A stretch of DNA of 21,648 nucleotides. It comes from a virus. Position numbers and translations under genes: made by a program. Below, piece after piece: positions 12,619 to 19,465 of this stretch (its first letter is position 1; every line of letters begins with the position of its first letter). The stretch covers positions 1 through 21,648 of IMG/VR virus record IMGVR_UViG_3300007722_000136. One strand, 5' to 3'. Under the pieces are notes generated by a model. That model made no database searches. It was not told where the DNA came from and saw only the letters and a program-made list of their open reading frames with translations.

Positions 12619-13041
12619 ATGATCAAACATCCTGGAGCTCGAACTCGCGCGCTGTATATGTGGGAGAACCGTTGTGTTGGCCCATATCTAAAGCTGCTCA
12701 ATCATTATGATATAGTTATTGCTGCACATACTATCTGGGAATCGTTTCAGCTACCACTACACAAACTTCCTGTTATTGAGATCAAAAATGTGCCAATATC
12801 ATACTGCTTAGGACGCGGTTTAATCGTGTTAAAACCGGCTGACATGGAGTTCCTTACGTTAGCCCACGAGTTGGTGCATGCGAGAGGGTTTGGATCTGTT
12901 AAAAACCCCCATAACGTTGGTTTTGTTAAGAATTATGCTGTTTGTCTCGATCGTTTCAGTAATACATATTTAAAAACAATAACAAATAGGACAAACGCTA
13001 TTTACTTCTATAACGAAATGCGCAGGATTAATTTGCTATGA
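12619..13041 (+). CDS. HExxH metallopeptidase-like protein
   Basis: The 140-aa product has H83-E84-L-V-H87 within LTLAHELVHARGFG, followed by NPHNVGF (H98), the layout of small zinc peptidases of the SprT or similar type; H98 is a candidate third ligand. No signal peptide is seen, so it would act in the cytoplasm. The start ATG 12619 has no good SD; upstream ATG 12614 is in another frame. Its stop overlaps ATG 13038 of the oxygenase fusion as ATGA. Substrate unknown. Confidence 0.65.
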   Translation: MIKHPGARTRALYMWENRCVGPYLKLLNHYDIVIAAHTIWESFQLPLHKLPVIEIKNVPISYCLGRGLIVLKPADMEFLTLAHELVHARGFGSVKNPHNVGFVKNYAVCLDRFSNTYLKTITNRTNAIYFYNEMRRINLL

Positions 13042-14063
13042 GAGATCTTTACCCGACACGCGTGTATGATGGAGTCATCAACGAACAATTGGTGGCACAT
13101 ATATCAAAGCAAAATGCCGGTCTATTCAAATATGGCTGGAAAGGTAATTCAAAACTTGAAGGAGATCAAGGTCACTGGAATGTTAAGATAGCTCACGAAG
13201 GACGCCACTCAACAAAAGATCTATCGTGTGAGTTATTTAAATTAAACTCTGAAATTGGTGCATTGTGGGAATACATACAGAGATATTTCGTTGGCAACAA
13301 GGCACTTCACCAATGCTACATCAACGGCTACACATTCGGAACTGATGGATATATTCATCGCGACGATCCTTGGGCAAAAGAACAGGGTGAAAATTCACCC
13401 ACGTGTGAAACAGTTATTATATACCTCAACGAACAATGGGATGCTAACTGGGGTGGGGAAACAGCACTATTTGACCAAGATCGGGAAATTGTTAAATCAG
13501 TGCTGCCAAAGTTTGGCCGCGTGTTAATATTTGACGGCCAAACTTTTCACGCTTCGCGGCCGATGAGTAGGATGTGCCCTAAATTGCGGCAAGTGCTTGT
13601 GTTTAAAACTTTCCGAATGCCGGAGCATAATAAGACGCCGAATGCGGTTGATGTTGCTTACAATATAACAAAAGGAATGAAGCACTCGGGCCGGTCATTC
13701 TTTGAGCACTTGATTAACACATCGGTGTTGTTGTTAAAAGAGGGGGCAAAAGAAGATGTAGTCGCCGCGGGGTTGTTTCACTCAATATATGGAACTGAGC
13801 AGTATAAGATTGATGGAACGCTAATCACACCCGAACAACTCAAAAACGTTATTAGTCCTTACTCGTTTAAGCTCGTACAAACTTTCTGCTCCTTAGAACA
13901 CCGTCGAAGCTACTTTCTTGCCCTAGCCAACAATTTTGCAATCACACAACAACAACACGATTTAATTCAAATACAGATGTGTAATTTGATTGAGCAACGC
14001 CCCAAACACAGCGATATACCTGTTTTGAGGGATATGTTGAAAAAGGTTAAAACAAATGAGTGA
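13038..14063 (+). CDS. 2OG-Fe(II) oxygenase fused to an HD-like (DUF6817-type) domain
   Basis: The N-terminal half (1-195) is a prolyl-hydroxylase-like dioxygenase: iron ligands H107-x-D109 (YIHRDDPW) and H171 (TFHASRP), a GGETALF strand (139-145) and R184 as 2-oxoglutarate anchor. The C-terminal part (about 205-335) has HSGRSFFEHLINTS (216-229) and AAGLFHSIYGTE (243-254), the signature of a predicted HD-like domain. The joint protein may hydroxylate a protein, nucleotide or base, with the second domain acting on a related substrate; this pairing is inference. It is coupled to the metallopeptidase-like gene before it. Confidence 0.82.
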   Translation: MRDLYPTRVYDGVINEQLVAHISKQNAGLFKYGWKGNSKLEGDQGHWNVKIAHEGRHSTKDLSCELFKLNSEIGALWEYIQRYFVGNKALHQCYINGYTFGTDGYIHRDDPWAKEQGENSPTCETVIIYLNEQWDANWGGETALFDQDREIVKSVLPKFGRVLIFDGQTFHASRPMSRMCPKLRQVLVFKTFRMPEHNKTPNAVDVAYNITKGMKHSGRSFFEHLINTSVLLLKEGAKEDVVAAGLFHSIYGTEQYKIDGTLITPEQLKNVISPYSFKLVQTFCSLEHRRSYFLALANNFAITQQQHDLIQIQMCNLIEQRPKHSDIPVLRDMLKKVKTNE

Positions 14064-15086: not shown

Positions 15087-15115
15087 TTGACCTTTCGTTA
15101 AAATTTGGGTATAAT
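15087..15115 (+). promoter_or_regulatory. Sigma70-like promoter
   Basis: TTGACC (15087-15092), a 17-bp spacer and TATAAT (15110-15115), the third copy of the GTTGACCT...TATAAT pattern in the window. It drives the small gene at 15137 and could read into the tmRNA. Confidence 0.85.
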
Positions 15116-15136: not shown

Positions 15137-15391
15137 ATGTTATTCAAGAAAGATTTTTTACGAGAGATGGAAGGTGAGACGGTGCTGAATGAGATCGTTG
15201 ATCATAGTCGATGGAGTGTTTATTATCGTAGAGTGTTCAAGTTTGAAGGCAAGACCTACGAGACAGTATACTCCGATGGCGCTACTGAAATCCAAGATGA
15301 ATCGCCGTACGATGGCGCTGATGATGATATTGAGTGTGAAGAAGTATTTCCGAAAGAGGTAACTGTGGTGCAGTACGTTAAGACGTTATAA
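15137..15391 (+). CDS. Small acidic phage hypothetical protein (84 aa)
   Basis: ATG 15137 is chosen because GGAG (15127-15130) lies six bases before it; ATG 15125 in the same frame would be almost at the transcript start. The product includes RWSVYYRRVFKFEGKTYETVY, a beta-rich segment, then an acidic stretch (SPYDGADDDIECEEVFP). It resembles small phage hypotheticals I have seen, without known function. Its stop codon overlaps the TATAAATA element of the tmRNA promoter. Confidence 0.65.
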   Translation: MLFKKDFLREMEGETVLNEIVDHSRWSVYYRRVFKFEGKTYETVYSDGATEIQDESPYDGADDDIECEEVFPKEVTVVQYVKTL

Positions 15392-15394
15392 ATA
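15387..15394 (+). promoter_or_regulatory. T4-type late promoter (TATAAATA)
   Basis: An exact TATAAATA within TTATAAATAGTA (15386-15397). The same 12-mer occurs at 18466-18477 upstream of gene 32. In T4 this octamer alone, with gp55 and gp33, makes a late promoter; gp33 is encoded at 16958. Transcription would start at about 15400, at the 5' end of the permuted tmRNA. Confidence 0.65.
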
Positions 15395-15399
15395 GTAGC

Positions 15400-15720
15400 T
15401 TATTGCTGTATGAAGTTGACTGAAAGGTGTTCTGGACGGGGGTTCGATTCCCCCCGACTCCACCAAAGACATATTGGGGTATTAGGCCGAAAGCAGCAAT
15501 AAGCGAATAGGCTGGTAGGACCTAGTATGTCTCTGATGGGGTCGACCGGTTTCGACAGGGCAATGATTAGGAAGATCGACAGCACGTCAGGCGATCGACG
15601 TTAATGAAGCAAAAACGTAAATGCAAACGATAGTGCATACTTCGAGCCAGTGCGCCTAGCGGCGTAATCTCGACGGGGTTTGCGGCGGTGTACCTTGTAA
15701 CCAAAATCACCGCCACTGAT
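15400..15720 (+). ncRNA. ssrA: Circularly permuted (two-piece) tmRNA
   Basis: The 3' (acceptor) part comes first: T-arm GGGGG TTCGATT CCCCC (15438-15454), acceptor strand CGACTCC (15455-15461), A, then an encoded CCA (15463-15465). The 5' part follows at 15538: GGGGTCG (15538-15544) pairs with CGACTCC including the G3-U pair used by alanyl-tRNA synthetase. The intervening segment 15466-15537 extends the stem with AGACATA (15467-15473) and TATGTCT (15526-15532). PK1 is GATCG/CGATC (15574-15578, 15592-15596) interleaved with ACGTC/GACGT (15584-15588, 15597-15601). The tag frame starts at GCA 15623 and reads ANDSAYFEPVRLAA, stop TAA 15665-15667. A second pseudoknot follows (GGTT 15677-15680 with AACC 15699-15702; GGCGGTG 15684-15690 with CACCGCC 15708-15714). 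Outer ends are approximate. Confidence 0.93.
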
Positions 15721-15738
15721 TATACTAAGAGGTTCAAT

Positions 15739-16041
15739 ATGCATATTGTCGACGGTGCTCTAGACAACAACCCAACCACAAGCATTACGACGTCAACAAG
15801 TCTAATGGATGAGCTGTCAAAAATATACGTAACACCGGCAAACTATACACCTGACCAAGCTGCTCAGCTTTCGCTTGGCCGTATTTCAAATAAGCGGTAT
15901 AATGACGAGACATTCGAAAATTATCGACTCCGTCTCAAGGATCAGCAGCAAAAAATTAAGAAACTCTCTCGCGGGGTCCTCGTTTGGGACTCTGTTAAGA
16001 ATGGTACGTTCAAACACGAAAGAAACAATGAAGCAAGTTAA
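15739..16041 (+). CDS. Hypothetical protein (100 aa)
   Basis: ATG 15739 follows AGAGG (15728-15732). A longer frame back to GTG 15688 is rejected because it would run through the tmRNA pseudoknot. The product has a Ser/Thr-rich N-terminal part (NNPTTSITTSTSLMDELSKI) and a basic helical C-terminal part (DETFENYRLRLKDQQQKIKK). No family is recognised. It overlaps the start of the cytidylyltransferase gene by 14 bases. Confidence 0.6.
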   Translation: MHIVDGALDNNPTTSITTSTSLMDELSKIYVTPANYTPDQAAQLSLGRISNKRYNDETFENYRLRLKDQQQKIKKLSRGVLVWDSVKNGTFKHERNNEAS

Positions 16042-16552
16042 CGTAGGGTTTACGTGTGGGTCGTTTGATCTTTTCCATGCCGGCCATGTTGAAATGCTTC
16101 GTGAAGTGCGAAGTAAATGCCACACGCTGATAGTTGGTATTCAATCTGACCCCACAATTGATCGTCCTGAAAAAAACTCCCCTGTTCAATCTATAATAGA
16201 GAGACAGATACAGGTGGCCGCTTGCCGTTACGTCGACGAAACATACGTCTATAACACCGAAGCAGATTTGCTCGTTTTGCTTTCAACTCTACCAATTGAT
16301 ATGAGATTTCTTGGTATGGAGTACATGAATAAGGAGTATACTGGCAGGAACCTATCAATCGACGTAACGTACAACAGTCGAGAACACTCTTTCAGCTCAA
16401 CAGATTTAAGAAGGCGCGTATACCTAGCAGAACTAATAGACGTTACTAATCTTGTCTTGGAGGAGAAGTATGAGAGATCTTCTACTTGCCATAATGTTGT
16501 ATGCTGCTCCAGTGCAGCCGACACCTATTCAACAAAACGTTCCTGTAGTTAG
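16028..16552 (+). CDS. Cytidylyltransferase-like nucleotidyltransferase (TagD type)
   Basis: The 174-aa product begins at ATG 16028 with GFTCGSFDLFHAGHVEML, the HxGH motif (H17, H20) of the cytidylyltransferase superfamily, and has FSSTDLRRR (122-130) in place of the second conserved ISSTxIR motif. Enzymes of this fold join CTP (or ATP) to a phosphorylated small molecule; the substrate is unknown, though T4-like phages often carry one. The last 25 residues, rich in C and S, run through the start of the next gene (overlap 83 nt) and look like an incidental extension. Confidence 0.82.
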   Translation: MKQVNVGFTCGSFDLFHAGHVEMLREVRSKCHTLIVGIQSDPTIDRPEKNSPVQSIIERQIQVAACRYVDETYVYNTEADLLVLLSTLPIDMRFLGMEYMNKEYTGRNLSIDVTYNSREHSFSSTDLRRRVYLAELIDVTNLVLEEKYERSSTCHNVVCCSSAADTYSTKRSCS

Positions 16553-16958
16553 TCCACAAGAGATAACATGTCTTGCAGAAAATATTTATCATGAGGCACG
16601 CGGCGAAGGCGAACAAGGAATGATCGCCGTTGGGTTGGTTACAATTAACAGAGTGAATAGCCCCAAATTCCCCGACAAGATTTGCCATGTTGTCCACGAG
16701 CGAAATAAGTGGGGATGCCAATTTTCGTGGGTATGTGATGAAAAGCTTGTTCGAAAAAAGAAAAAGAGCGAGGCGTGGGATGCGAGCTACGCCGCGGCCC
16801 TCAAGGTAATATACGATTTTCGCTCACACCATAATATAGTTCCGAACGCGCTTTTTTACCACGCAAAACACGTTGAATTTCCTCAGTCGTTTCGTAAGAA
16901 GCTTACGGAGGTTGCTGTCGTAGGAAATCATATTTTCTTCAGAGGTAAAGATTTATAA
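16470..16958 (+). CDS. SleB/CwlJ-like cell-wall hydrolase with signal peptide
   Basis: ATG 16470 has a near-perfect SD (GGAGGAG at 16459-16465). Residues 1-14 (MRDLLLAIMLYAAP) form a short hydrophobic export signal or anchor. The catalytic region has LAENIYHEARGE (35-46) with the conserved E42, then QGMIAVGLVTINRV and FPDKICHVV, typical of the Hydrolase_2 (PF07486) family that cleaves peptidoglycan glycan strands, and a C-terminal ALFYHAKHV. It would act in the periplasm during lysis. Without a nearby holin this may be a secreted endolysin or spanin-independent accessory enzyme. Confidence 0.85.
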   Translation: MRDLLLAIMLYAAPVQPTPIQQNVPVVSPQEITCLAENIYHEARGEGEQGMIAVGLVTINRVNSPKFPDKICHVVHERNKWGCQFSWVCDEKLVRKKKKSEAWDASYAAALKVIYDFRSHHNIVPNALFYHAKHVEFPQSFRKKLTEVAVVGNHIFFRGKDL

Positions 16959-17200
16959 TGAATGATATCAAACTGGATTCGATGATTGACGTAAAAACCT
17001 TTTTGTACGAAATTGAAAACCTTGTCACTGAGAAGAAATTAGAGTATATTGATGCAATTGTTTATTACTGTGACAACAATAACATGGAAGTAGAGACAGC
17101 AGCCTCTCTAATCAAACAAAACCAAATGATGAAAGCTAAGGTAAGAGTTGAGGCAGAAGATCTTCACTACCTTCCTAAGAAATCGAGACTACCTATATGA
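16958..17200 (+). CDS. 33: Late-transcription coactivator (T4 gp33-like)
   Basis: The 80-aa product fits the gp33 group of cyanophage-like T4 relatives: an N-terminal IENLVTEKKLEYIDAIVYYC helix pair, EVETAASLIK, and an end of AEDLHYLPKKSRLPI. T4 gp33 binds RNA polymerase and links the late sigma factor gp55 to the sliding clamp. Two TATAAATA elements in the window are matching targets. It is joined by TAATG to the hydrolase gene and lies upstream of 59 and 32, as in T4. Confidence 0.8.
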   Translation: MNDIKLDSMIDVKTFLYEIENLVTEKKLEYIDAIVYYCDNNNMEVETAASLIKQNQMMKAKVRVEAEDLHYLPKKSRLPI

Positions 17201-17877
17201 TGGAAGTGTTGCCGTGGGCTGTTGATGTGAATGAAATGAAGCAGCACCTCGTTAAGAACGTATTTCCTCTTGGCCCAGCCGTAATTCAAGGCGAAGAATA
17301 CGGGTTTGATACGTTTGGTGGGTGGAGCGTTCAAAGTCGGACCGGCGAATGGGCAGATGGATGGCAGATTACGAGACCGAGTCACGACTACACCGATGAG
17401 CAGCTGTTCGATTTAAAATACCGCGGAGTCGGCCACCCAATGGAACACGTCCACCCTACAGCGGCCAATACTGGGTATCTTAAATTTTGGATGGATAAGA
17501 TTGAGAGTGCTGGATTCTACCCGCGCCGCGCGCGTATTACTGTAGTGCGTCCAAACACGCATTCAGTTTGGCATCAGGACGCTGCAGATGATCAATATGG
17601 TGTTAGACTTCATATTCCTATTGTTACAAACAATGCATGCTTTCATCACGTACAAGATTGTAAACCTTTTCATATGGACGCTGGAAAAGTGTATGTCATC
17701 TGCGTTAATAACGTGCACAGGATCATTAATAACAGCGTATACAACCGTTTCCATTTAATAATGGATGTATACGACACACAACACTTTTGTAACAGTAGTA
17801 CGTTCCACTATAAAGGTAATATTTTGGAACGGATCGCCGCCGCAGGTGATTTTAGGAGAAGAATTGATGCTCTCTGA
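17197..17877 (+). CDS. Aspartyl/asparaginyl beta-hydroxylase-like 2OG-Fe(II) oxygenase
   Basis: The 226-aa product has the double-stranded beta-helix ligands H126-x-D128 (WHQDAADDQ) and H174 (NVHRIINNS), R184 as a likely 2-oxoglutarate contact, plus RLHIPIVTN and DAGKVYVICVN strands, matching the PF05118 family. Host members hydroxylate Asp/Asn side chains; the phage target is unknown. ATG 17197 overlaps the gp33 stop. It is placed between 33 and 59, which are adjacent in T4, so it appears to be an insertion into that cassette. It overlaps the start of 59 by 11 bases. Confidence 0.82.
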   Translation: MMEVLPWAVDVNEMKQHLVKNVFPLGPAVIQGEEYGFDTFGGWSVQSRTGEWADGWQITRPSHDYTDEQLFDLKYRGVGHPMEHVHPTAANTGYLKFWMDKIESAGFYPRRARITVVRPNTHSVWHQDAADDQYGVRLHIPIVTNNACFHHVQDCKPFHMDAGKVYVICVNNVHRIINNSVYNRFHLIMDVYDTQHFCNSSTFHYKGNILERIAAAGDFRRRIDAL

Positions 17878-18457
17878 TCTTAGTGATGGTTTTCAAGCGT
17901 TTAAACAGTATGTAGCTATTAAGAACCACTTTACATCACCATACTACGATTACTTCAAGTATAACGGAGCAGTCAAAGTAGGACGTCCGACGTTTGACAA
18001 ACGCCGCGACAAATTCATGTTCAGCAAACTAGCTAAAAAGAAAGATATTAAAGGTTTTTTGATTGCTAATTTTGTTGATAGCAAGAACTCGTGGGTTGGA
18101 GATGTAATTAGTAATGTAGCAAGCGATAAGATTTATTTGCAGTGGTTGGGCCGTCAACAATCATTGCAGTATATTTTTGAGAATGATCTCGACAAACTTA
18201 GTGGTACACTCGAAGAAAATCTCAAAGTAGAGGATGGTCAGTACCCTATCCTTTTAAAGCTGGCATTAAGAAAACAAGTTAGTTTGGAAACAGTCATCAT
18301 TTTGAACTCGTTCTGCAAATTCTTCAAACACTGGTCTCGTAATATTGAAGATACAGTAATTTGGCCGCAATTCAAGTTCAAATGTTTGAAGTATAAACCC
18401 TTTATAACCTTTGATCAAAAAACTTTCAGAAAAATAGCTGTTGACAAATTTTCGTGA
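17867..18457 (+). CDS. 59: Helicase loader (T4 gp59-like)
   Basis: The 196-aa product matches gp59: YDYFKYNGAVKVG, then TFDKRRDKFMFSKL and IANFVDSKNSWVGDV, which line up with the RRDKYFFQKL and NLVANQDAWIGDI stretches of T4 gp59, and a C-terminal helical half. gp59 loads the gp41 helicase on gp32-coated forked DNA and starts recombination-dependent replication. ATG 17867 is chosen over the longer frame because TAGGAGAAG (17853-17861) is an excellent SD. Gene 32 follows directly, as its protein partner. Confidence 0.88.
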   Translation: MLSDLSDGFQAFKQYVAIKNHFTSPYYDYFKYNGAVKVGRPTFDKRRDKFMFSKLAKKKDIKGFLIANFVDSKNSWVGDVISNVASDKIYLQWLGRQQSLQYIFENDLDKLSGTLEENLKVEDGQYPILLKLALRKQVSLETVIILNSFCKFFKHWSRNIEDTVIWPQFKFKCLKYKPFITFDQKTFRKIAVDKFS

Positions 18458-18466
18458 AAAAGGGAT

Positions 18467-18474
18467 TATAAATA
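18467..18474 (+). promoter_or_regulatory. T4-type late promoter upstream of gene 32
   Basis: TATAAATA within TTATAAATAGTA (18466-18477), identical over 12 bases to the element before the tmRNA. TTGACA at 18441-18446 is 20 bp upstream, so weak sigma70 use is also possible. The leader 18475-18544 is A/T-rich, almost unstructured, as expected for an autogenously regulated gene 32 mRNA. Confidence 0.6.
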
Positions 18475-18544: not shown

Positions 18545-19465
18545 ATGGCAACAAAGCAATCATTCGCGCAGATGAAGCGCAATCGTAATACCGCCTTCGA
18601 AAAGCTCAACGCCGAGCTGACCAAAATCGATGGCCCCAAAAATCAAGAAGATGAGCGGTTCTGGAGACCAGCAGTAGATAAGGCAGGCAATGGTTATGCC
18701 ATTGTTCGGTTCCTCGCTGCTCCTGGTGAAGAGGACGTTCCTTTTGTCCGTATTTGGGATCATGGATTTAAAGGTCCGGGTGGTTGGTATATCGAGAAGT
18801 CACTCACGACACTTGGGCAACAAGATCCTTGCAGTGAGTATAATCAAAAGCTGTGGGCGACCGGCGACCCTGCCGATAAGAAGTTCGTGCAAGGTGTTCA
18901 GGGAACTCCAGGGTCAAAACGCCGTCTTTATTACGTCTCGAATGTTTATGTTATAAAGGATTCCGCTAATCCGGAAAATGAAGGGAAGGTTTTCCTTTTC
19001 CAATATGGCAAGAAGATTTGGGACAAGCTCAACGGTGCAATGCATCCTGAGTTTGAAGACGAAAAGCCAATGAATCCTTTTGATCTTTGGGATGGCGCTA
19101 ATTTCAAAATCAAGATTCGTAAGGTGGATGGATATCGCAATTACGATTCATCTGAATTTGAAACTCCAAGTCCGTTGTTTGAATCTGACGACGAAATTGA
19201 AAAAGTTTGGAAGTCGGAGTTTCCTTTAGCTGCATTTACTGATCCGAAGGAATTCAAATCGTACGAGCAACTGAAAGCTCGTCTCGACAAAGCAATGGGA
19301 ACCAGCACTAGAACAGATGACGGAGATGATGAGGAGTTTGTGCCTACTAAAGCGCCACGTGAAGCAAAATCGAAAAAGGCAACTGCCGAAAAAACGATTG
19401 TGCCAGATGATGACGAAGATGAGGACAGCACAAAGTTCTTTGAAAAGTTAGCAGCAGAAGAGTAA
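18545..19465 (+). CDS. 32: Single-stranded-DNA-binding protein (T4 gp32-like)
   Basis: The 306-aa product follows gp32 throughout: basic N terminus (MKRNRNTAF), AGNGYAIVRFL, HGFKGPGGWYIE, SANPENEGKVFLFQYGKKIWDKL, GANFKIKIRKVDGYRNYD and a long acidic tail (DDDEDEDSTKFFEKLAAEE) that in T4 recruits replication partners. Of the T4 zinc ligands (His, Cys, Cys, Cys) only the His of HGF and one Cys (DPCSEYN) remain, so the zinc site is probably lost. SD AAGGAG (18531-18536). It coats single-stranded DNA in replication, recombination and repair, and probably regulates its own translation. Confidence 0.95.
   Translation: MATKQSFAQMKRNRNTAFEKLNAELTKIDGPKNQEDERFWRPAVDKAGNGYAIVRFLAAPGEEDVPFVRIWDHGFKGPGGWYIEKSLTTLGQQDPCSEYNQKLWATGDPADKKFVQGVQGTPGSKRRLYYVSNVYVIKDSANPENEGKVFLFQYGKKIWDKLNGAMHPEFEDEKPMNPFDLWDGANFKIKIRKVDGYRNYDSSEFETPSPLFESDDEIEKVWKSEFPLAAFTDPKEFKSYEQLKARLDKAMGTSTRTDDGDDEEFVPTKAPREAKSKKATAEKTIVPDDDEDEDSTKFFEKLAAEE

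Follow-up and report, generated by a model that had tools for sequence, protein, structure and literature searches.

A T4-superfamily phage with a beta-type, circularly permuted tmRNA gene

Does a T4-like phage carry an intact gene for tmRNA, the RNA that releases stalled bacterial ribosomes, with its two parts in reversed order, and if so, what would the phage gain from it? The question arose from a reading of the window, by which we mean the whole stretch of DNA analysed here, an IMG/VR virus record of 21,648 bases. The original prediction placed a circularly permuted tmRNA there and named Infernal with the Rfam models and tmRNA-aware tools as ways to check it, and both bear it out. The Rfam model RF04321 (tmRNA_permuted, curated cut-off 47 bits) matches 15404-15667 (+) over the full model with 143.7 bits (E 9e-29), ARAGORN calls a permuted tmRNA with the tag ANDSAYFEPVRLAA, and reading the letters upholds every coordinate that had been named as well as the permuted order itself, in which the acceptor 3' strand, T-arm and CCA stand 5' of the acceptor 5' strand. 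The beta_tmRNA model RF01850 gives the top score of the alpha, beta and cyano models (15351-15736, full model, 114.7 bits, cut-off 84); the alpha model is also above its cut-off (66.1 bits, cut-off 50), whereas the cyano model (46 bits, cut-off 70) is below, as is the one-piece model (31 bits, cut-off 47). The stretch 15404-15667 (+) holds a complete permuted tmRNA gene of a T4-superfamily phage. None of the expected elements is missing, from the acceptor stem with its G3-U pair, the T-arm and the CCA to the 72-nt intervening segment, PK1, the tag and the 3' hairpin:

15404-15465, + strand: acceptor piece, made up of the P2 5' strand, T-arm, acceptor 3' strand and encoded CCA (sequence reading, ARAGORN, Rfam)
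15404-15408, + strand: 5' strand UGCUG of the P2 outer helix, partner CAGCA at 15580-15584 (covariance-model alignment)
15438-15454, + strand: T-arm, a 5-bp stem (GGGGG 15438-15442 with CCCCC 15450-15454) and UUCGAUU loop (sequence reading, Rfam)
15455-15465, + strand: acceptor 3' strand CGACUCC (15455-15461), discriminator A15462 and CCA (15463-15465)
15466-15537, + strand: intervening segment of 72 nt, expected to be excised, its ends pairing as AGACAUA/UAUGUCU
15538-15544, + strand: acceptor 5' strand GGGGUCG with the G3-U70 pair
15584-15610, + strand: PK1, stem 1 15584-15588/15597-15601, stem 2 15591-15595 with 15604-15606 and 15609-15610
15623-15667, + strand: tag reading frame GCA...GCG TAA, ANDSAYFEPVRLAA (sequence reading, ARAGORN)
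15684-15714, + strand: 3' hairpin of 7 bp with the beta-type loop CCUUGUAACCAAAA (beta_tmRNA alignment)

The acceptor stem had been described as seven pairs including the G3-U pair, and this stands: G15538-C15461, G15539-C15460, G15540-U15459, G15541-C15458, U15542-A15457, C15543-G15456 and G15544-C15455 all pair in the window (7/7), the third being the G3-U70 alanine identity pair of AlaRS. A non-redundant set of 96 phage permuted tmRNAs (window included) keeps all seven pairs and the G3-U in every member, while positions 5 and 6 of the stem have undergone true pair changes, with five pair types each. Pairs 4-7 are observed in 384/384 cases against at most 323/384 with shuffled partners, a test that carries a mild bias from picking the register in favour of pairing. 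The window tmRNA has an MFE z-score of -3.3, and in folding the paired ends of the intervening segment lengthen the acceptor helix. The 3' hairpin at 15684-15714 likely lies close to the 3' end of the messenger piece.

PK1, which is located 5' of the tag, had been described as an interleaved pair of 5-bp stems, and only part of that description stands. Stem 1 covaries, with both-side changes in four of its five pairs (12 sequences). The second stem, which we read as GATCG/CGATC at 15574-15578/15592-15596 and which is seen in this sequence alone, is not conserved; it pairs in 53% of cells only, which equals the shuffle level, and was rejected as fortuitous. The real partner is 15604-15610, where the conserved stem 2 joins the loop to AUN (15604-15606) and GC (15609-15610), with one G-G mismatch in the window in a stem that is conserved in relatives.

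The tag was correctly predicted to end at TAA 15665. Its frame starts with alanine, finishes in a degradation signal and is closed by the stop, and ARAGORN gives the same tag. Among the 96 phage permuted tmRNAs the tag begins AND in 70 and ends in [LIMV]AA in 89; because these 89 end LAA, IAA, VAA or MAA, the tag appears to be kept as a degradation signal. One tight clade (L087, L089, L098, L139, L161) has tags that are very short (ADAELVAA) or of 23 residues (ANAFKPEVTVPMSVFADQELVAA), with the same end, and two further permuted tmRNAs (L115, L144) have the odd predicted tags DDCKSSKPRKCKRRKVRISRLNSA and AKTNTLAMGAAAGR, perhaps from a misread frame or a degenerate gene. Judged by its sequence, the window tmRNA gene looks functional.

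The T4-superfamily assignment is borne out by gp32, gp33 and gp59, which lie within 4 kb. Downstream of the tmRNA the window holds the following genes:

15739-16041, + strand: small ORF right after the tmRNA
16028-16552, + strand: cytidylyltransferase-like protein, also found in the closest relative
16482-16958, + strand: cell wall hydrolase (PF07486), a regular downstream neighbour of phage permuted tmRNAs
16958-17200, + strand: gp33, late-transcription coactivator (PF16805)
17765-18457, + strand: gp59, helicase loader, its true start probably downstream of 17765
18545-19465, + strand: gp32, single-strand DNA binding protein

Upstream stand an ATP-dependent ligase, a RuvC-like resolvase and exonucleases, the ligase and resolvase counting with gp32, gp33 and gp59 as T4-type core genes; since T4-type genes lie on both sides of the tmRNA, the record is part of a T4-superfamily phage. 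The nearest isolates are only about 50% identical in gp32, and in gp59 the nearest is Stenotrophomonas phage DLP6 (38%). Elsewhere in the window, 17197-17877 and 13038-14063 encode Aspartyl/asparaginyl beta-hydroxylase-like, 2OG-Fe(II) oxygenase and DUF6817 proteins, which are possible modifiers.

How long has the gene been with such phages? Scanning IMG/VR with a pattern for the permuted order yielded at least 119 stretches, and in nearly all of them ARAGORN finds a permuted tmRNA. Where non-redundant loci have both a tmRNA and gp33, the two share a strand in 36 of 36 cases, and the tmRNA is upstream of gp33 in 35 of 36, at gaps of 0.4-5.6 kb. A tmRNA is present in 11 of the 19 gp32 relatives that extend at least 5.5 kb upstream; these are the nearest relatives, partly redundant, and not a population estimate. 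Among the matches listed, the phage closest to the window is L002, by gp32 (62%), gp59 (64%), gp33 (68%) and the tmRNA (75%), and it has the cytidylyltransferase and the gene order in common with the window. The two form one clade with L119 in the tmRNA tree (support 0.988), in the reading of which the Cupriavidus branch (two references, wrongly cut) was left out. Direct nucleotide comparison with isolate phages returned short T-arm stretches at most, or nothing. Distances between tmRNAs correlate with those between core genes (Mantel correlations 0.25-0.35 over 37-39 loci; 0 of 2000 permutations as high), and these modest values make exchange between phages likely. Because the gene is shared with L002, despite core-protein identities of only 62-68%, we take the tmRNA to be, in all likelihood, an old phage gene with some exchange between phages.

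This age bears on the suggestion that the phage acquired the form of its host, which cannot be assumed. Permuted tmRNAs are carried by Stenotrophomonas phages DLP6, Bhz51 and QDWS359, Xanthomonas phage Rb1, Pseudomonas phage SM1 and Acinetobacter phage BUCT628, all with gammaproteobacterial hosts, and these four host genera are expected to have one-piece tmRNA. Permuted tmRNA genes have been described from alpha, beta and cyanobacterial lineages (PMC11915505). In isolated phages of the same four genera, permuted tmRNA genes are absent from the record annotation:

L203, 3004-3225 (KU682439.2): unannotated phage permuted tmRNA
L204, 2003-2308 (PQ569993.1): unannotated phage permuted tmRNA
L205, 2003-2297 (ON331942.1): unannotated phage permuted tmRNA, with a hypothetical protein annotated antisense over the gene
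L207, 1970-2269 (KU245542.1): unannotated phage permuted tmRNA
L209, 1978-2192 (MZ593728.1): unannotated phage permuted tmRNA

Two Cupriavidus megaplasmids (L212, L214) also have permuted tmRNA genes, where the PLSDB table lists no gene.

When would the gene be transcribed? Two sites upstream of it bear on timing:

15387-15394, + strand: T4-type late promoter motif TATAAATA, without a -35 element, predicted start near 15400
15087-15115, + strand: sigma70-like promoter TTGACC-17-TATAAT (11/12), ahead of a small ORF lying 5' of the tmRNA

The late-type motif lies about 10 nt 5' of the first base of the acceptor piece, and nothing resembling a -35 element was found 5' of it. Two exact copies occur in the 21.6-kb window against 0.70 expected, which is unremarkable by count, and so the case for a late promoter rests on position: of 104 relatives, 32 have TAAATA at a distance of 35-90 nt from the T-arm anchor, on its 5' side, compared with 4 that have it at 100-155 nt. 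From this we infer late timing for the window tmRNA. The other exact copy, at 18467-18474, ends 71 nt 5' of gp32. Late timing is not general, because the slot before the tmRNA is filled by a good sigma70-type promoter in other phages (20 of 96 cases, compared to 2.7 expected from shuffles). Nor is every upstream TAAATA counted as a late promoter, as 11 of the 30 such loci also fit sigma70. In five phages (L029, L032, L072, L077, L008) a hybrid TTGAC(A/T/C)-17-TATAAATA, fitting both sigma70 and T4 late promoters, stands directly 5' of the tmRNA. Since the one slot holds late, sigma70 or hybrid promoters, phages appear to supply the tmRNA gene with a promoter of their own. The sigma70-like site at 15087-15115 is weaker and 290 nt upstream of the tmRNA; such sites number 6 in 2.3 kb against 4.3 in shuffles, weak on its own, and this one may possibly give earlier read-through transcription. 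A search for a terminator between the tmRNA and the downstream small ORF (15739) found none.

SmpB, AlaRS and EF-Tu have established roles as partners of tmRNA. No SmpB gene was found in 21 phage records of 93-221 kb by a search that was positive in 10 of 14 control genomes, and the phage tmRNA would thus work with the SmpB, AlaRS and EF-Tu of the host. We consider it probable that, with these host factors, the window tmRNA helps to rescue ribosomes late in infection. Transcription from the putative late promoter whose motif is seen would begin near 15400, pass in turn through the acceptor piece, the intervening segment and the messenger piece, and run on into the hydrolase-gp33 genes, given that no terminator was found. 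From this transcript host tRNA-processing enzymes would excise the 72-nt segment, so that one piece ends at CCA 15465 and the other begins at G15538; pairing in P2 and in the acceptor stem would hold the two together. With its G3-U pair kept, the two-piece RNA should be a substrate for host AlaRS, and with SmpB and EF-Tu it would enter ribosomes stalled on broken messages, add ANDSAYFEPVRLAA and free the ribosome, the tagged product being sent to degradation through its LAA end. The gain to the phage would be more active ribosomes late in infection, and the gene would have been long kept within phages beside late-transcription and replication genes. In T4 infection the host's own SsrA stays stable, and a part in keeping ribosomes available was suggested for it (PMC9697503). 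This fits a rescue role, but it is then not obvious why a phage would need a copy of its own.

The RNA could instead be made mainly to give chosen proteins a longer, phage-specific tag (...EERLAA or ...PVRLAA), shifting which of them are degraded. Tags of the window clade do have 13-14 residues and an RLAA end, compared to the usual 10-residue ALAA tag, and selective tagging as host-protein recycling was proposed for phage Melnitz (PMC9004378). However, the LAA end is still an ordinary degradation signal, and RLAA-ending tags turn up in several separate tmRNA clades. Nor is tmRNA known to have any means of picking host over phage proteins, and on balance selective tagging seems unlikely. The lack of a phage SmpB would also suit a decoy RNA that blocks host trans-translation by titrating SmpB or the ribosome, with the tag-less tRNA-like RNA of mycobacteriophage DS6A as precedent (PMC4131195, PMC11915505). 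Yet the messenger piece is complete, with PK1 and an in-frame tag whose end is conserved, and as the tag appears to be kept as a degradation signal, we judge a mere decoy to be highly unlikely.

It is equally improbable that the gene is a recently captured bacterial ssrA, taken from the present host or left by prophage excision and without a selected role. The beta-type sequence would fit such an origin, and ssrA is a common integration site (PMC9004378), but position and order are common to diverged phages, the promoter slot is the gene's own, and the tmRNA is 75% identical to that of L002 while the core proteins are 62-68% identical. Two strict DNA patterns for a bacterial counterpart also gave no match in 84,980 genomes, which is weak evidence given their strictness. 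Beyond ribosome rescue in this one phage, we tentatively suggest that the two-piece tmRNA may be a long-standing module of one broad T4-like group, placed upstream of gp33-gp59-gp32 with its own promoter in a fixed slot and brought into hosts of any tmRNA form, where it would install its own rescue RNA and tag late.

The claim of novelty, as originally stated, is not supported, as the permuted tmRNAs of the T4-like phages Melnitz and Mosig were published in 2022 (PMC9004378). That work reported a two-piece tmRNA in the Methylophilales phage Melnitz, related it to pelagimyophages, located ssrA directly upstream of gp33, and counted 53 two-piece forms among 133 unique phage tmRNA structures. The window tmRNA is a further, beta-type case. 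New in it are the late-type promoter motif next to the gene and the conserved location amid T4 late and replication genes; new as well are the agreement of core genes and tmRNA on the nearest phage, and the permuted copies in phages whose hosts are expected to have the one-piece form. It confirms ribosome rescue as a function that many T4-like phages would bring along, and the fixed gene order and promoter slot yield a testable prediction on timing. In Stenotrophomonas and Pseudomonas phages, where phage and host tmRNA forms are expected to mismatch, the two could be told apart by structure and tag in laboratory systems.

Like the window, Melnitz and Pelagibacter phage Mosig EXVC030M are T4-type phages with a permuted ssrA upstream of gp33. 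In the Mosig record the annotated SsrA immediately precedes the late-transcription accessory gene, after which come gp59 and gp32, and as in the window it is on the strand of gp33; the window differs in having the hydrolase and cytidylyltransferase genes between tmRNA and gp33. In contrast to the beta-type tmRNA of the window, the Mosig tmRNA scores as alpha type and that of Melnitz was placed with Alphaproteobacteria (PMC9004378). The authors of that paper inferred an early promoter for Melnitz ssrA and described a glutamine riboswitch, whereas the window has a late-type promoter motif and no match to such a riboswitch.

The betaproteobacterial tmRNA model RF01850 matches the window tmRNA over its full length, the loop of the 3' hairpin and stem 1 of PK1 included, but a bacterial tag has 10 residues (ANDEKFALAA in Cupriavidus, as on the two megaplasmids) and that of the window has 14. 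Beta-type phage copies score up to 165 bits, some above the window's 114.7, and the beta model exceeds its cut-off in DLP6 and Bhz51 (Menderavirus) and in SM1 and BUCT628, as it does in the window. In these four and Rb1, most of them unannotated, the gene has other genomic places and other tags than in the window, those of Bhz51 and DLP6 sitting by tRNA clusters. The tmRNAs of the mycobacteriophage Bxz1 group and Bacillus phage G are one-piece, with standard gene order, and not permuted. What they have in common with the window is a tmRNA encoded by the phage itself (PMC4131195).
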